Position numbers and translations under genes: made by a program. Shown one piece after another: positions 40,643-64,000 of a DNA stretch of 64,000 nucleotides. The notes beneath the pieces are model-generated. The model saw only the letters and a program-made list of their open reading frames with translations, had not been told where the DNA came from and did not search any database. How positions within the stretch are numbered: position 1 is the stretch's first letter; each line of letters starts with the position of its first letter. The stretch comes from Fibrobacter sp. UWB13. Its GTDB lineage: Bacteria; Fibrobacterota; Fibrobacteria; Fibrobacterales; Fibrobacteraceae. The DNA is taken from the NCBI RefSeq assembly GCF_900177805.1, contig NZ_FXAX01000001.1, positions 372,001 through 436,000 on the forward strand. Reading direction: 5' to 3'.

Positions 40643-40675
40643 ACTGAATCCTTCCGCCTTCGGCGTCAGGATGAC
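40643..40675. repeat. GTCAT-type hairpin repeat (inverted)
   Basis: Read on the minus strand: GTCATCCTGACGCC-GAA-GGCGGAAGGATTC. ATCCT/AGGAT form the outer stem, CGCC/GGCG the inner one. It is the closest intergenic relative of the copies found inside the heme genes. Confidence 0.6.
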
Positions 40676-40705
40676 GGCGCGAGAGGGACCGTACAAAAAC
40701 GAAAA

Positions 40706-58721: not shown

Positions 58722-59894
58722 ATGATCAGTATTACTAAGCTTTTGATGGATACCCCGAATTTCGGGGATTCTCTTCGTTATGAACCGCGTGCCCACGAAT
58801 CTAAGAACGGTGTGGGCCCGGGCCGTGGTCCGGTGGTGGTGTGGAACTGCACCAAGACTTGCAACCTGAAGTGCGTGCATTGCTATGCCCGTTCAGAGGC
58901 TATCAAGTACCAGAACGAACTTTCACACGAAGAGGGAATCAAGCTTATTGATCAGCTTGCAGATTTCCATGTGCCGGTGATTTTGTTCAGCGGTGGCGAA
59001 CCGCTTTTGCGCCCGGACTTTTTTGAACTCGCGAACTATGCGGCAAGTAAGGGCATCCGTCCGACGATTTCGACGAACGGCACTTGCATCACGCCGGATG
59101 TGGCTCAGAAGCTCAAGGCGATGGGCGTGGGCTACGTGGGCATAAGCTTGGATGGTTGCGAAGAAACTCACGACAAGTTCCGTGGCAAGCAGGGCGCGTA
59201 CCAGATGGCTTTGCGCGGGATCCGCAATTGTGTCGCGACGGGTCAGAAGGTTGGACTCCGCTTCACGATTACAAAGTACAACTATCAAGACCTGAACGCT
59301 ATTTTCGATTTGCTCGAAGCGGAAAACATTGATAGAGTTTGTTTCTATCACCTTGTCTATAGCGGTCGCGGAAGTGCGATGGTCGATAACGACTTGAATC
59401 ACGAAGAGAGCCGCAAGGTGATGGACTTGATTATTGATCGCACTTTGGACTTTAAGAAGCGCGGTGTGAACAAGGAAATTTTGACGGTCGACAACCACGC
59501 CGATGCCGTTTATCTGTACCAGCGCATGAAGCGCGAAGACCCGGAACGCGCGAAGATTGTTCTGGATTTGATTCAGCGCAATGGCGGAAATCGCAGCGGT
59601 ATGGCATTTGGCAATATCGATAGCATTGGCAATGTGCATCCGGACCAGTTTACGCAATATATTACGCTCGGAAACGTTCGCGAACGCAACTTTGGCGACA
59701 TTTGGACAGACTTGTCAAATCCGATTATGGCTGGCCTCAAGAACCGCAAACCGCTTTTGAAGGGGCGTTGTCCGAAGTGTGCTTACTTGAATTTGTGCAA
59801 CGGCAATTTCCGTACGCGTGCCGAAGCTGTTACTGGCGACTTCTGGGCTGAAGATCCGGCTTGCTATTTGACCGATGAAGAAATTGGGCTGTAA
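58722..59894 (+). CDS. ahbC: Radical SAM heme-synthesis protein, AhbC/NirJ family
   Basis: About 390 aa from the ATG at 58722. The N-terminus ISITKLLMDTPNFGDSLRY is characteristic of NirJ1/AhbC. The radical-SAM cysteines are in CNLKCVHC (C-x3-C-x2-C, near residue 50), with GGEPLLRP following. C-terminal cysteines (GRCPKCAYLNLCNG, and one in PACY) can hold a second iron-sulfur cluster. AhbC removes the two acetate chains of didecarboxysiroheme, giving iron-coproporphyrin III. It overlaps the fused decarboxylase gene by 20 bases. NirJ of heme d1 synthesis is the alternative; nearby hemA and hemC with no nir genes favour heme. Confidence 0.85.
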   Translation: MISITKLLMDTPNFGDSLRYEPRAHESKNGVGPGRGPVVVWNCTKTCNLKCVHCYARSEAIKYQNELSHEEGIKLIDQLADFHVPVILFSGGEPLLRPDFFELANYAASKGIRPTISTNGTCITPDVAQKLKAMGVGYVGISLDGCEETHDKFRGKQGAYQMALRGIRNCVATGQKVGLRFTITKYNYQDLNAIFDLLEAENIDRVCFYHLVYSGRGSAMVDNDLNHEESRKVMDLIIDRTLDFKKRGVNKEILTVDNHADAVYLYQRMKREDPERAKIVLDLIQRNGGNRSGMAFGNIDSIGNVHPDQFTQYITLGNVRERNFGDIWTDLSNPIMAGLKNRKPLLKGRCPKCAYLNLCNGNFRTRAEAVTGDFWAEDPACYLTDEEIGL

Positions 59895-60966
59895 CGCCTC
59901 TCGCGATGTGCCGCAAATGCTGAGTCAAAAACTTCTCGCGATTATTCAAGACGGCTTTCCGTTGGTGGAACGCCCGTATTTGCGCTTAGCAGAAATGTTG
60001 AACGTTTCTGAACACGAAGTTTTTGATGATATTGAGAAAATGCGCGTGTCCGGCGTAATTCGACGTATTGGTGGCGTGTACGATTCCAAAAAACTGGGCT
60101 TTATTTCGAGACTTTGTGCAGGAAAAGTACTGACTTCGGAAAATGATTTTGCGGCGGAACCGCATGCGCAGACTCCGATGGAAAAGTTCGCTGCAGTCGT
60201 GATGAGCGAACCTGCGATTACGCACAATTACATCCGTAGTCACGAATACAATGTTTGGTTTACGGTCATTGCCGAAAATGAATCTGCAATCCAGGTGGTT
60301 GTGGACCGCGTGTGTTCGCAAACATATTTGCACGATGTCCATGTCCTTACCGCCACCAAGAAGTATAAAATCAATACGGTGATGTCATTAGACGAGAGAC
60401 GTGGTTCGGCAGGCTCACCAACCTTGACGAAAGACGAAATAGGCGAGAGTGCCCCGGCTTTGCGTCATTCTGACAACCGAAGGTTGGAAGAATCCAGTAA
60501 TTTCTTGGGAAAACTCACTGACTCCGACAAGTTCCGCATCCACATTGCTTGTGATGATATCCCGCATACGCTCACTCCGTTTAAGGACTGGGGTGTTTCT
60601 TGCGATGAACTTCGCGAAGATTTTGCTACTAAACGTATGCGCCGCTTTGGGGCGATCCTTCGCCATCAAGATGCGGGTTTCCCCTGCAATGCGATGGTAT
60701 GCTTCTCTCGTCATTCTGAGGACCGAAGGAACGAAGAATCTAGTAAAGTCTTGGCTCTTGCGAAAAAACACTACATTTCGCATTGTTACGAGCGTCCGTC
60801 TTTTGAAAATTTCCCGTACAACTTGTATGCAATGATGCATGCTCAGACGCCTGAAGAATTAGACGCCTACATCAAGGAATCCGTGGCGTTGCTTGATAAC
60901 CCGGAATACGTCGTTCTCCATTCCCTCAAGGAACTCAAGAAAACGAGCTTCAGATTTTTTGCGTAG
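59875..60966 (+). CDS. Fused siroheme decarboxylase (AhbA-AhbB type) with in-frame repeat inserts
   Basis: 363 aa. Two Lrp/AsnC-like halves. Half 1 (about 15-165): HTH LLAIIQDGFPLVERPYLRLAEMLNVSEHEVFDDI, MRVSGVIRRIGGV, then the domain ending SEPAITHNYIRSHEYNVWFT. Half 2 (about 210-363): DIPHTLTPF, KRMRRFGAILRHQDAGFPCNAMV, HCYERPSFENFPYNLYAMMHAQ. This matches AhbA/AhbB (NirD/L/G/H), which remove two carboxyl groups from siroheme; normally two separate subunits. Two repeat copies add peptides: at 60463-60499 in the linker, and at 60709-60742 within half 2. A further repeat-like segment (GGTTCGGCAGGCTCACCAACC) lies at about 60403. The start may also be the ATG at 59917. Confidence 0.82.
   Translation: MKKLGCNASRDVPQMLSQKLLAIIQDGFPLVERPYLRLAEMLNVSEHEVFDDIEKMRVSGVIRRIGGVYDSKKLGFISRLCAGKVLTSENDFAAEPHAQTPMEKFAAVVMSEPAITHNYIRSHEYNVWFTVIAENESAIQVVVDRVCSQTYLHDVHVLTATKKYKINTVMSLDERRGSAGSPTLTKDEIGESAPALRHSDNRRLEESSNFLGKLTDSDKFRIHIACDDIPHTLTPFKDWGVSCDELREDFATKRMRRFGAILRHQDAGFPCNAMVCFSRHSEDRRNEESSKVLALAKKHYISHCYERPSFENFPYNLYAMMHAQTPEELDAYIKESVALLDNPEYVVLHSLKELKKTSFRFFA
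60403..60499 (+). repeat. In-frame repeat inserts in the decarboxylase linker
   Basis: First a GGTT...AACC palindrome (60403-60424 region), then the hairpin repeat CGTCATTCTGACAACCGAAGG at 60463 with inner stem CAACC/GGTTG and outer stem ATTCT/AGAAT. It is read as RHSDNRRLEESS. Confidence 0.65.
60709..60742 (+). repeat. In-frame hairpin repeat within decarboxylase half 2
   Basis: CGTCATTCTGAGGACCGAAGG ... GAAGAATCT, read as RHSEDRRNEESS. It splits the conserved block between NAMVCF and KKHYISHCYERP. Confidence 0.7.
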
Positions 60967-60971
60967 TATCG

Positions 60972-61616
60972 CTAGAATCGATAGCCTATACCGATGTTGG
61001 TAATGCCCTTTGCGCCCCAAAGTAAAAACGGCACTTGGAATCGAACGGAAACGGGGTAGCCAATCTCAAAACCTAAAAGGGAAATGTGTCCCATGGGAAT
61101 GACTCTATCGGACATAATTGAAATTCCCGCATCAAGTTCAAAAAATGGGTTGACGAATCCCCCTAAATTACCATTGATTTTTAGTTTTGCCATAACCGTG
61201 GTTATAGGAGGATCATATATAAACAAATTTAGGATAATACCTGTTTCGATGTAGTCAAATGCGTATCCGTAATCGATGGATACAGCTCCATAAGAACAAG
61301 AAAAAAGTTTTTCACATTTATCATCAAATAAGTGGCTTAATCCGGCACCAAAATCAAATAGTGTTAAAAAGTCATACTCAAAGCCAATACTATGATGTTT
61401 GATTTGACTCTTTTTGTTTTGATTGGATCCGTTTGCCTTCGCCATGCTTGTATCGACTATGATTTTTTGCTTTTGGTCTTTTTTCCAAATGGTGTTGGTG
61501 TCGATAATTCCTTCGCCAGCTTGTGCGTTTTCTACATACGTTCCCATGTCCCAAGCGTTTGCATGGACCGCAAAAAATAGAGAAATAACAGCGCAGAGTA
61601 AAAATCTTTTTGTCAT
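60972..61616 (-). CDS. Exported beta-barrel-like protein, unknown
   Basis: About 214 aa from the ATG at 61616, which follows AAGGGC. Signal peptide MTKRFLLCAVISLFFAVHANA. The rest is rich in Gly and aromatic residues in alternating strands (HSIGFEYDFLTLFDFGAGLSHLF, GAVSIDYGYAFDYIETGIILNLF) and ends in GIGYRF, a terminal Phe as in outer-membrane barrels. It lies antisense inside the heme cluster, between the decarboxylase and hemA genes, and has no evident link to them. Confidence 0.75.
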   Translation of the reverse strand: MTKRFLLCAVISLFFAVHANAWDMGTYVENAQAGEGIIDTNTIWKKDQKQKIIVDTSMAKANGSNQNKKSQIKHHSIGFEYDFLTLFDFGAGLSHLFDDKCEKLFSCSYGAVSIDYGYAFDYIETGIILNLFIYDPPITTVMAKLKINGNLGGFVNPFFELDAGISIMSDRVIPMGHISLLGFEIGYPVSVRFQVPFLLWGAKGITNIGIGYRF

Positions 61617-61738
61617 GCCCTTGAATAACTTAGCCAATTAATTCGGTTTCTATAATTTATATATAATAATTTTTTGAAAGAAAAAGTATTTTTCGATTAA
61701 GAAAATGCTTGTGTCATGGCGAAATACCCTAGATTGCA

Positions 61739-61767
61739 TTTGGTGGAGTGTAATTTTTCTATCTTTG
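61739..61767 (+). promoter_or_regulatory. hemA promoter, predicted leaderless
   Basis: TTTG at 61739, 17 bases, TATCTTTG at 61760-61767, then GGCT and the ATG at 61772. No ribosome site. Confidence 0.65.
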
Positions 61768-61771
61768 GGCT

Positions 61772-63076
61772 ATGCGCAAAATTTACATGGCAGGCATGAG
61801 CCACAAGGTGGCTGAAATCGCAATTCGCGAAAAGTTTTATATCCCGATGGATGTAAAGACTGAGGCGTTAACACATTCTCCATTTGATGAACTTTTGATT
61901 CTGGCAACGTGCAATCGCACGGAAGTCTATGTGGCGAGCGACCGTGAAATCACTGATGGTGAACTCGTTCGTTATGTGTGTGGACTTGCCCGTCAAGACT
62001 ACGATGATTTTGCGAAGTTCTTTTATTTTAAGTCGGGTGACGATGTTGCGCACCATGTGATGAATGTGTGTGCCGGGCTTGATTCTGTCGCTATGGGCGA
62101 GGATCAAATTTTGCACCAAATTGGCCGTGCGTACGAAACGGCGCACCAGCTGAATGCGACGGGCAATACGCTGAACAAGCTTTTCCAGAGCGCGATCCAT
62201 ACGACAAAGCGTATCAAGACTGAGACGAACTTGAGCAAGCTCAGTTGCAATATTCCGTTCTTGGCGATGAAGCAAGTGCAGAAGACTTTTGACGATCTTG
62301 AAAATCGTACCGTGTACATCGTGGGGCTTGGTGAGATGGGCTCGCTGATGCTCAAGTATGTACAAGAGAATACGACCAAGATTTTTGCAAGTAGCAAGAC
62401 TTTTGCAAATGCCGAAAAATTTGCAGATGTGCTTACGCCTGTGAAATTCGAAGACCGCTACGAAGTCCTTGGCAAGTGCGATGTCGTGATTCTCTGCAGC
62501 GCTTGCCAGGAACCGATTGTCACGAAGAATGAGTTTGAAAAGACAATTGCATTGTGTCATCCTGAGCGAAGCACGGTGTGTGAAGTCGAAGGATCCTGTG
62601 AAGGTTCGTCTGCTGTGACAGACCCTTCAAAGCGCTTGATTATCGATCTTGGTAGCCCGCGCAATGCAGAAGCTTCTATTGGTGAACTTCCGGGCGTTGA
62701 ATACGTTTGCGTTGATGACCTTGAAAAGATTGTTTCTGAAAATCGTCGGTTGCGCATGATTGAACTTGATGCAGCGCAGAAAATTTTGAAAGAAGGCCTT
62801 GATGAATTCTTGCATTGGAACCGTATGGATGAGGTCTCCAAGCAAATTCATTTGCATGCCGAAAAAATGCTTACGACGGCAAATGAAGAATCTGAAAAAT
62901 TATTGCGCTCCATGCCGGAACTTTCGGAAGATGACCGCCATCGCATCCAGATGATGTACGAACGATTTGCGAAGAAAATGGCGAATGACTTTTTGTATAA
63001 AGTCAAGGCTGAAAATTCGCCTGAAGATGTGCAGGTGTTCCTCAAGTGCTTAGATTCAAAATCTCCTAGAAATTAG
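61772..63076 (+). CDS. hemA: Glutamyl-tRNA reductase with in-frame repeat insert
   Basis: First enzyme of the C5 route to tetrapyrroles; reduces glutamyl-tRNA to glutamate semialdehyde. 434 aa. Catalytic Cys47 lies in ATCNRTEVY, followed by the specificity motif MGEDQILHQI and the NADPH site VGLGEMG near residue 190. Between FEKTIA and KRLIIDLGSPRN (residues ~262-287) sits an extra stretch with RSTVCEVEGS that comes from a hairpin repeat; the flanks match the family closely. It is probably still active since the insert is in a surface loop beside the NADPH domain; this is inferred. hemC follows after 11 bases. Confidence 0.93.
   Translation: MRKIYMAGMSHKVAEIAIREKFYIPMDVKTEALTHSPFDELLILATCNRTEVYVASDREITDGELVRYVCGLARQDYDDFAKFFYFKSGDDVAHHVMNVCAGLDSVAMGEDQILHQIGRAYETAHQLNATGNTLNKLFQSAIHTTKRIKTETNLSKLSCNIPFLAMKQVQKTFDDLENRTVYIVGLGEMGSLMLKYVQENTTKIFASSKTFANAEKFADVLTPVKFEDRYEVLGKCDVVILCSACQEPIVTKNEFEKTIALCHPERSTVCEVEGSCEGSSAVTDPSKRLIIDLGSPRNAEASIGELPGVEYVCVDDLEKIVSENRRLRMIELDAAQKILKEGLDEFLHWNRMDEVSKQIHLHAEKMLTTANEESEKLLRSMPELSEDDRHRIQMMYERFAKKMANDFLYKVKAENSPEDVQVFLKCLDSKSPRN
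62556..62632 (+). repeat. In-frame hairpin repeat inside hemA
   Basis: GTCATCCTGAGCGAAGCAC ... GAAGTCGAAGGATCC (62556-62596), followed by a GAAGG...CCTTC inverted pair to about 62632. Read as CHPERSTVCEVEGS plus about 12 residues. It differs from the hemC copy at two of 38 bases. Confidence 0.75.
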
Positions 63077-63087
63077 AGGGGCTTGCT

Positions 63088-64000
63088 GTGAGTGACTTGA
63101 AATTACGTATCGCAACGCGCAAGAGCGCTTTGGCTTTGGCCCAGACGACGATGGCGGCGGATGCTATTGTCGCTGCTAATTCTGTTATTGGGAATGCCGC
63201 CGATTCTAATAATGCCCGCGATTCTCTGACTTATGAACTGGTCTCCATGACAACCGAAGGCGATCGCCGTTTGGATAAGTCTCTGGCGAGCTTTGGTGGC
63301 AAGGGCGTGTTCATCAAGGAACTGGAAATTGCACTCCTTGAAGGTCGTGCTGATATTGCGATTCACAGCTTGAAGGATATGCCAGCCGAAGTGCTGCCGC
63401 AGTTCAAGCTTGCTGCAGTCTTGAAACGTGCAGACCCGCGAGATGCGTTCCTTTCGCGTGGTGGAGCTGCTGGAATCCGCTTTATGGATTTGCCTGCAGG
63501 TGCTCGCGTGGGAACGGGAAGTATTCGCCGTGTGGTACAGCTGAAAGCGCTCCGCCCGGATTTGGAATATGTGCCGATTCGCGGAAACATCCAGACTCGC
63601 ATTGGCAAACTTGCGGAACTTGATGGTGTTGTGCTTGCGGCTGCGGGGCTTAAGCGTATGGGGCTTGCAGACCAGGTAACGGAATATTTTAGCACCGAAC
63701 AGATGCTCCCCGCCAGTGGTCAGGGAATCCTTGCGATTGAAACTCTTGCCGATTCTGACACTCGTCATCCTGAGCGAAGCACTGTGTGCGAAGTCGAAGG
63801 ATCGAGGGCGATTTGTAACGACCTTGCGCAGATTCTCGCTCGCGTGAACGATGTTGCGACATTCTGCATCGCTTCTGCTGAAATGGCGTATTTAAAGGCG
63901 CTCAATGCTGGTTGCCAATTCCCGGTGGCAAGTTTCGCGGAATTTGTTGACGGTGGGTCTAATAGAATTGCGCAGACTTTGAAAATTCGCGGCATTTACT
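63088..64000 (+). CDS. hemC: Porphobilinogen deaminase (partial) with in-frame repeat insert
   Basis: Runs off the window; 304 codons visible from a GTG start with GAGGGG upstream. Joins four porphobilinogens to hydroxymethylbilane. Family motifs: LRIATRKSALALAQ, LDKSLASFGGKGVFIKELE, DIAIHSLKDMPAE, GTGSIRRVVQLKALRPDL, RGNIQTRIGKL, ASGQGILAIE, and the cofactor Cys in NAGCQFPVASF. A hairpin repeat adds RHPERSTVCEVEGS (63764-63803) right after GQGILAIETLADSD, before the helix that leads to the Cys. The frame stays open. It forms a unit with hemA (11-base gap). Confidence 0.94.
   Translation, partial: MSDLKLRIATRKSALALAQTTMAADAIVAANSVIGNAADSNNARDSLTYELVSMTTEGDRRLDKSLASFGGKGVFIKELEIALLEGRADIAIHSLKDMPAEVLPQFKLAAVLKRADPRDAFLSRGGAAGIRFMDLPAGARVGTGSIRRVVQLKALRPDLEYVPIRGNIQTRIGKLAELDGVVLAAAGLKRMGLADQVTEYFSTEQMLPASGQGILAIETLADSDTRHPERSTVCEVEGSRAICNDLAQILARVNDVATFCIASAEMAYLKALNAGCQFPVASFAEFVDGGSNRIAQTLKIRGIY
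63764..63803 (+). repeat. In-frame hairpin repeat inside hemC
   Basis: GTCATCCTGAGCGAAGCAC ... GAAGTCGAAGGATC, nearly the same as the hemA copy, same orientation, same reading frame. Confidence 0.75.

Follow-up and report, generated by a model that had tools for sequence, protein, structure and literature searches.

Palindromes that lie in frame within genes are known from Rickettsia (PMC10969869), and in-frame CGTC and GTAG REPs are known from other bacteria (PMC3733652). The described system closest to the repeats considered here is that of the CGTC-tagged REPs (Di Nocera et al. 2013, PMC3733652). These include RPE-4 and RPE-6 of R. conorii and are said to lack a transposase. Their families 1 to 4 have a stem of 8-9 bp and a loop of 4-5 nt, and head-to-head dimers predominate (PMC3733652). 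CGTC REPs, some of them intragenic, have already been reported in five phyla (PMC3733652).

Four segments of a similar kind lie within three heme genes of Fibrobacter sp. UWB13. They are best explained as copies of a short mobile palindrome of the CGTC-tagged REP type. In this model, recurrent insertion like that of the Rickettsia palindromic elements (RPEs) would be combined with an exchange of interrupted alleles, and copies would be kept where disordered loops tolerate them. The probability of this reading is roughly 0.87.

The heme operon

The genes concerned were identified with NCBIfam and Pfam models and with solved structures. All are encoded on the forward strand of the stretch analysed, which is called the window below.

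Window: Fibrobacter sp. UWB13, assembly GCF_900177805.1, contig NZ_FXAX01000001.1, positions 372,001-436,000, forward strand, 64,000 nt
58722..59894, + strand: radical SAM gene of NirJ1/AhbC type, belonging to the same cluster and without an insert in any species compared
59875..60966, + strand: ahbA-ahbB fusion, siroheme decarboxylase halves AhbA and AhbB, 363 aa
61772..63076, + strand: hemA, glutamyl-tRNA reductase, 434 aa
63088..64000, + strand: hemC, hydroxymethylbilane synthase, 347 aa; the gene ends 132 bases past the window

The NirJ1/AhbC-type gene is located upstream of ahbAB, while cobA-hemD, cbiX-cysG and hemB lie downstream of hemC. The cluster is a siroheme-dependent heme operon. 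In four Fibrobacter genomes, G025, G055 (99% complete), G024 and G040, neither HemA nor HemB has a match, and a close match to the NirJ1/AhbC-like protein is also absent. The pathway is thus accessory within Fibrobacter. HemA identity is at least about 70% within the genus, compared with about 28-31% to HemA from the family's other genera (L162-L169). This drop outside the genus hints at a lateral acquisition of the operon.

The four in-frame copies

The copies of the palindrome, a second repeat found beside them and a copy used for comparison are located as follows.

60463..60496, + strand: repeat copy 1, within the AhbA-AhbB linker and in frame; encodes RHSDNRRLEES
60709..60742, + strand: repeat copy 2, within the AhbB half and in frame; encodes RHSEDRRNEES
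62555..62595, + strand: repeat copy 3, in frame in hemA, in a helix-to-strand loop of the NADPH domain
63763..63803, + strand: repeat copy 4, in frame in hemC
60391..60445, + strand: second repeat, unrelated to the palindrome, in frame in the AhbA-AhbB linker (GACGAGAGACG...GGCAGGCTCACCAACC...); missing in some close relatives
about 40643..40676, - strand: intergenic copy of the palindrome with matched arms

The predicted peptides of the four copies are, in order, RHSDNRRLEESS, RHSEDRRNEESS, CHPERSTVCEVEGS and RHPERSTVCEVEGS. A sequence-only reading of the window had placed all four copies on the + strand within ahbAB, hemA and hemC, oriented in sense and sharing one frame, and this placement was confirmed. 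It had also described the relatives elsewhere in the window as intergenic, which holds for the arm-matched copy listed above, and had observed correctly that a TGA closes one forward frame of the element. Its statement that conserved enzyme motifs directly flank each insert was only partly right. Conserved blocks are near, about 9-16 residues off on at least one side, but they do not always lie directly beside the insert.

The second copy in ahbAB adds only about 8 aa relative to the shortest orthologue. The four operon copies are no more similar to each other than to the genome pool, intergenic copies included, and are therefore not simple local duplicates. Local duplication or gene conversion within the operon was rejected for this reason.

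Structure and abundance of the element

The structure of the palindrome was analysed in 88 copies from UWB13 and a related genome, G004. The predicted layout consists of a [CT]GTC tag, an outer stem formed by ATYCT and AGRAT, a GA/GA internal loop, a variable inner stem and a CCAGT tail. Stem and loop are predicted to comprise a 5-bp outer stem, a 2x2 internal loop, the variable inner stem and, in most copies, a 3-nt loop. The inner stem carries a C-GNA-G loop in 79 of the 88 copies. GTC is preceded by C or T in 82 of 87 copies, and the first three tail positions are C (85 copies), C (63, with T in 24) and A (81). The first two stem pairs are AT, with GTCAT...AT built into the search pattern. 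The Y/R pair of the outer stem covaries, with 67 C-G pairs, 21 T-A pairs and no mismatch. Mini-hairpins of the d(GCGAAGC) type, which contain sheared G-A pairs, are exceptionally stable as single-stranded DNA.

The element is dispersed through the genome. With at most one mismatch, CGTCATYCTGA occurs 8 times in the window, where 2.2 occurrences are expected and shuffled sequences reach a maximum of 6. The head GTCATYCTGA is found 155 times in the 3.80 Mb genome, compared with 5 times for a backwards control pattern. Together with the covariation, this establishes one palindromic family whose members are more alike than chance, as the sequence-only reading had supposed. The related genome G045 has 352 heads, more than twice the number in UWB13. 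Clusters of mixed orientation make up 4 of 70 on contig C1 of UWB13, counted with the GTCATYCTGA head only, so inverted dimers are rare.

The element is also widespread in the genus. Of 44 Fibrobacter genomes, 42 contain its 16-base head. Outside the genus, 3 of 16 genomes from the same family contain it, and the 40 genomes from the rest of the phylum have none. An exact 26-base form is present in many other phyla, including Omnitrophota, Acidobacteria, Planctomycetes, Alphaproteobacteria, Gemmatimonadetes and Bacteroidota, with many of the matches in MAGs.

A search for the Y1_Tnp class found no mobilising enzyme in the genome. The sole Y1_Tnp present is the following.

G000:C2:146910-147266 (L087): complete IS200-like Y1 transposase with its own terminal hairpins

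Mobilisation by a RAYT or IS200 enzyme was rejected, since this single Y1_Tnp has no flanking repeat and is missing from many repeat-bearing relatives.

Comparison with known systems

The Fibrobacter element resembles the CGTC-tagged REP superfamily in its CGTC/TGTC tag outside the stem, AT stem start and CCA tail. It also shares the high copy number, the presence of some intragenic copies and the lack of a dedicated transposase (in the Y1_Tnp class that was searched). Unlike those REPs, it has a 5-bp outer stem, a GA/GA internal loop and mostly a C-GNA-G loop. Its inverted dimers are rare, its phylum is outside the five listed, and it has a strong hotspot in one pathway. Because its stem and loop lengths differ, it is called CGTC-REP-like and is placed outside families 1-4.

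Like RPE-4, RPE-6 and RPE-1, the palindromes occur as in-frame insertions in housekeeping genes that are unrelated to each other and still encode functional products. The likeness to RPEs is one of description, and the shared sequence feature is the CGTC tag (PMC3733652). The earlier comparison with Rickettsia palindromic elements was nevertheless apt, in that RPE-4 and RPE-6 are themselves CGTC-tagged REPs (PMC3733652). Unlike RPEs, the Fibrobacter loops are reused by several families genus-wide, and Fibrobacter is a free-living gut lineage rather than an obligate intracellular one.

GTAG REPs, which are mobilised by RAYT transposases, are likewise small tagged palindromes and are sometimes intragenic, but the Fibrobacter tag is CGTC/TGTC and no RAYT is flanked by the repeat. 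Single-strand transposition of IS200/IS605 likewise involves hairpin ends and a possible replication-strand bias. Here, however, no transposase gene is linked to the repeat, and the resident IS200-like copy has other hairpins.

Searches of open-access papers found no description for Fibrobacter, and no pathway in which several repeat families reuse the same loops. The earlier claim of an undescribed case in an unrelated phylum stands as far as Fibrobacter is concerned, but its novelty at the level of phylum is tempered by the CGTC REPs of five phyla. A multi-family, genus-wide hotspot in one pathway appears to be undescribed.

Empty, filled and replaced loops

Orthologues of HemA, HemC and AhbAB were taken from up to 51 Fibrobacter species, with one genome per species. 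Across these 51 species, the insert sites are hypervariable loops of variable length between nearly invariant blocks. A given site may hold a short loop, the same repeat, another GTCAT-headed palindrome or another kind of repeat, in frame. Examples of other GTCAT-headed palindromes are CHCEGDSPKQS from GTCATTGCGAG, VIPAKAGIS from GTCATCCCCG and CHAGLRSGIS from GTCATGCCGG. Sites are reused in AhbAB, HemA, HemC, CobA-HemD and CbiX-CysG.

An example of an empty and a filled site is found in CobA-HemD, which reads VVD-DESR in G045 and VVD-KCEHVILSEERSSESKDLV-ESR in G004. In the CobA-HemD of G050, a second repeat is nested within the repeat. In L052, cobA-hemD has another repeat (CCATTCGACAAGCTCAGGGTAAACTCCGG) nested within the palindrome, with the frame kept. 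The HemA loop of G045 and G001 (L039, L040) contains a longer repeat (GAAGACAACTCAGAAGGCGAG...), which in UWB13 adjoins a copy of the palindrome head (L127:2447). Further repeat kinds, GACGAGAGAC, GTTGGCAGT and TCGACAAGCTC, are in frame in Ahb linkers (60391-60445 and its relatives). AhbC and HemB of the same cluster have no inserts, HemB being represented by 11 rows only, several of them partial.

The inserts lie in disordered loops. AlphaFold models HemA with confidence apart from residues 105-109, the insert (267-283) and the C-terminus. Its model of HemC is weaker overall and is low at 223-239, which is the insert. The distant structures 1gpj, 4n7r and 1ah5 have a gap at the insert sites, which spans about 20 residues in both HemA and HemC.

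The segments might instead be native ancient linkers, or the decaying sequence of a pseudogene, and the linkers are indeed variable in all species. This is extremely improbable, however. Distant orthologues are gapped rather than carrying the same residues at the same sites, and the repeat is identical with dispersed intergenic copies. Frames are open throughout, and dN/dS in the HemA core is about 0.01 or less, which contradicts pseudogene decay. The insertion model proposed from the sequence is thus supported by the distant gaps, by the covarying family, and by Fibrobacter species that lack single copies or hold other repeats in their place.

Selection and turnover

Purifying selection on the catalytic blocks is very strong. 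Between close species, core dN/dS of HemA is 0.00-0.009 at a dS of 0.28-0.39. Corresponding values are 0.01-0.04 for HemC, 0.05-0.08 for CobA-HemD, 0.005-0.024 for CbiX-CysG and 0.12-0.19 for Ahb.

The loops turn over by gain, loss and replacement. Presence or absence of any GTCAT-headed palindrome was mapped by parsimony on a tree made from conserved codons only. The minimum number of changes is 15 for HemA, 15 for HemC, 10 for the Ahb linker and 4 for the second Ahb site. It is 7, 8, 6 and 7 for four CobA-HemD sites, and 4 and 4 for two CbiX-CysG sites.

Such counts could also arise from few insertions if interrupted heme-operon alleles were spread by recombination, mimicking hotspots. L060 is unlike its sister L065 and resembles L052 and L054 in both repeat and flank; RDVVN..VILS-ERSSESKDL is present in L052, L054, L059 and L060 and not in L065. 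The insert RHSERSEESSQFSNSASAE is common to L066 and L079, which belong to distant clades, with the same subtype and matching flanks. Judged from repeat and flank together, some shared inserts have clearly moved between clades along with their surroundings. The absence of the heme operon from some nearly complete genomes also fits with exchange. Because interrupted alleles moved between clades, not all of the counted changes are fresh insertions. Between species, most sites differ by replacement of the whole linker, so insertion is not always distinguishable from segment exchange. Exact junctions and target duplications are not readable between species with one genome for each.

A predominance of lateral exchange is nonetheless on the unlikely side. 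The same sites hold at least four repeat families, in two reading frames, with nested insertions and different peptides. In addition, the four UWB13 copies are as similar to intergenic copies elsewhere as they are to one another.

Under the preferred reading, recurrent insertion with some exchange, the process may be outlined as follows. The hairpin unit would be copied or moved to many places by some activity, inserting, probably as a single strand, through an enzyme acting in trans. Insertions that break the frame or the fold would be removed, while in-frame insertions in solvent-exposed flexible loops would survive selection. Surviving copies in disordered loops could then persist, drift and become nested, and interrupted alleles may be exchanged between species by recombination. 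Of these steps, the persistence of copies, the keeping of the frame, the location in loops and the turnover are established by the data. The linkers would act as tolerant landing sites. Presumably translated and probably neutral, the inserts would give the proteins new peptides of 10-60 aa.

Orientation and frame

In-gene copies were counted by frame and strand in the sampled stretches and in 51 heme loci. Among arm-matched copies in these loci, 59 are in sense and 1 is antisense. Three other families give sense to antisense ratios of 18:0, 10:0 and 5:0, and the head pattern finds about 140 sense and 3 antisense copies in heme genes. The main family uses only its two TGA-free frames, with 48 and 11 copies.

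This orientation belongs to the locus and not to coding as such, since copies in two other genes are antisense. In tilS (L308-L337), all ten copies, from three families, are antisense and in frame, one row being weak. All three genuine copies in ligA (L338-L367) are likewise antisense and in frame, again with one weak row. A general rule of sense orientation for coding insertions is contradicted by tilS and ligA.

One explanation for the sense bias is that the mRNA hairpin regulates the heme operon through translation speed, stability or attenuation, with the peptide as a by-product. Besides the ratio of 59 to 1 in the operon, this is favoured by intergenic copies between co-directional genes, most of which are sense copies (18 to 6 and 11 to 4). 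It is improbable given that a hairpin forms in either orientation, as the tilS and ligA copies illustrate. Moreover, copies occur at many different positions in five genes, and no site is conserved, each being empty in many species.

Alternatively, replication may set the orientation, if insertion is single-stranded and the tag strand lies on the lagging-strand template, as in IS200/IS605. By GC skew, the heme genes of UWB13 are located on the leading strand, and its tilS and ligA on the lagging strand; samples from G004 and G030 agree. As far as sampled, G045 shows the same for heme and tilS. Leading strand and sense thus coincide at the heme loci, as do lagging strand and antisense at tilS and ligA. 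On C1 of UWB13, 45 of 66 single-orientation clusters follow the leading strand (p 0.004), but C1 of G045 has no such bias (19 of 40). A genome-wide replication-strand rule was rejected on account of this difference. With only three independent in-gene loci, and a discordant copy in hsdS, control by replication is a tentative and somewhat unlikely explanation, and the evidence for a replication-coupled single-strand route is suggestive only. An orientation that differs from locus to locus points to local causes, either a bias of insertion or a filtering of peptides specific to the site.

Hotspot and other genes

About 100 of the 155 heads of UWB13 were sampled by stretches covering 436 kb, of which 87% is coding. 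Matching arms were found in 60 sampled copies. Eight of the 60 are inside genes, and 4 of those 8 are in the three heme genes, which make up about 0.1% of coding sequence. If eight copies were placed at random, the chance of this would be about 1e-10. The remaining in-gene copies are in hsdS, ligA and a tilS-like PP-loop gene, with one close to the 5' end of an exbB/tolQ-like gene. G004 has 6 copies in its heme operon, compared with 5 in-gene copies in twenty other stretches, 3 of them in tilS. The hotspot extends into cobA-hemD and cbiX-cysG.

Since a single pathway holds half of the in-gene copies in the UWB13 sample, the repeat peptides could be adaptive, for example in channelling or regulation of heme enzymes. 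This is very improbable, because the sequence, length (0 to >100 aa) and presence of the inserts all differ among species, and AhbC and HemB of the same cluster lack them. A more far-reaching proposal regards the heme operon as a genuine hotspot of insertion. CGTC-type REPs of several unrelated families would then be delivered with fixed polarity by one shared mechanism, single-stranded and coupled to replication or to the locus, repeatedly rewriting loops of tetrapyrrole enzymes genus-wide. This proposal is doubtful and must be considered rather unlikely.

In-frame palindromic repeats were previously seen as largely a peculiarity of Rickettsia. Fibrobacter has culturable members and offers five adjacent enzymes with at least ten loop sites in dozens of species, where turnover is directly readable. 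Its loops allow tests of how CGTC REPs are mobilised when no transposase is known for them, and of whether peptides born from repeats are tolerated or useful. A dense accumulation of heads is found in G045, where G045:C1:274590-280237 holds about 18 of them, in both orientations, within 6 kb.
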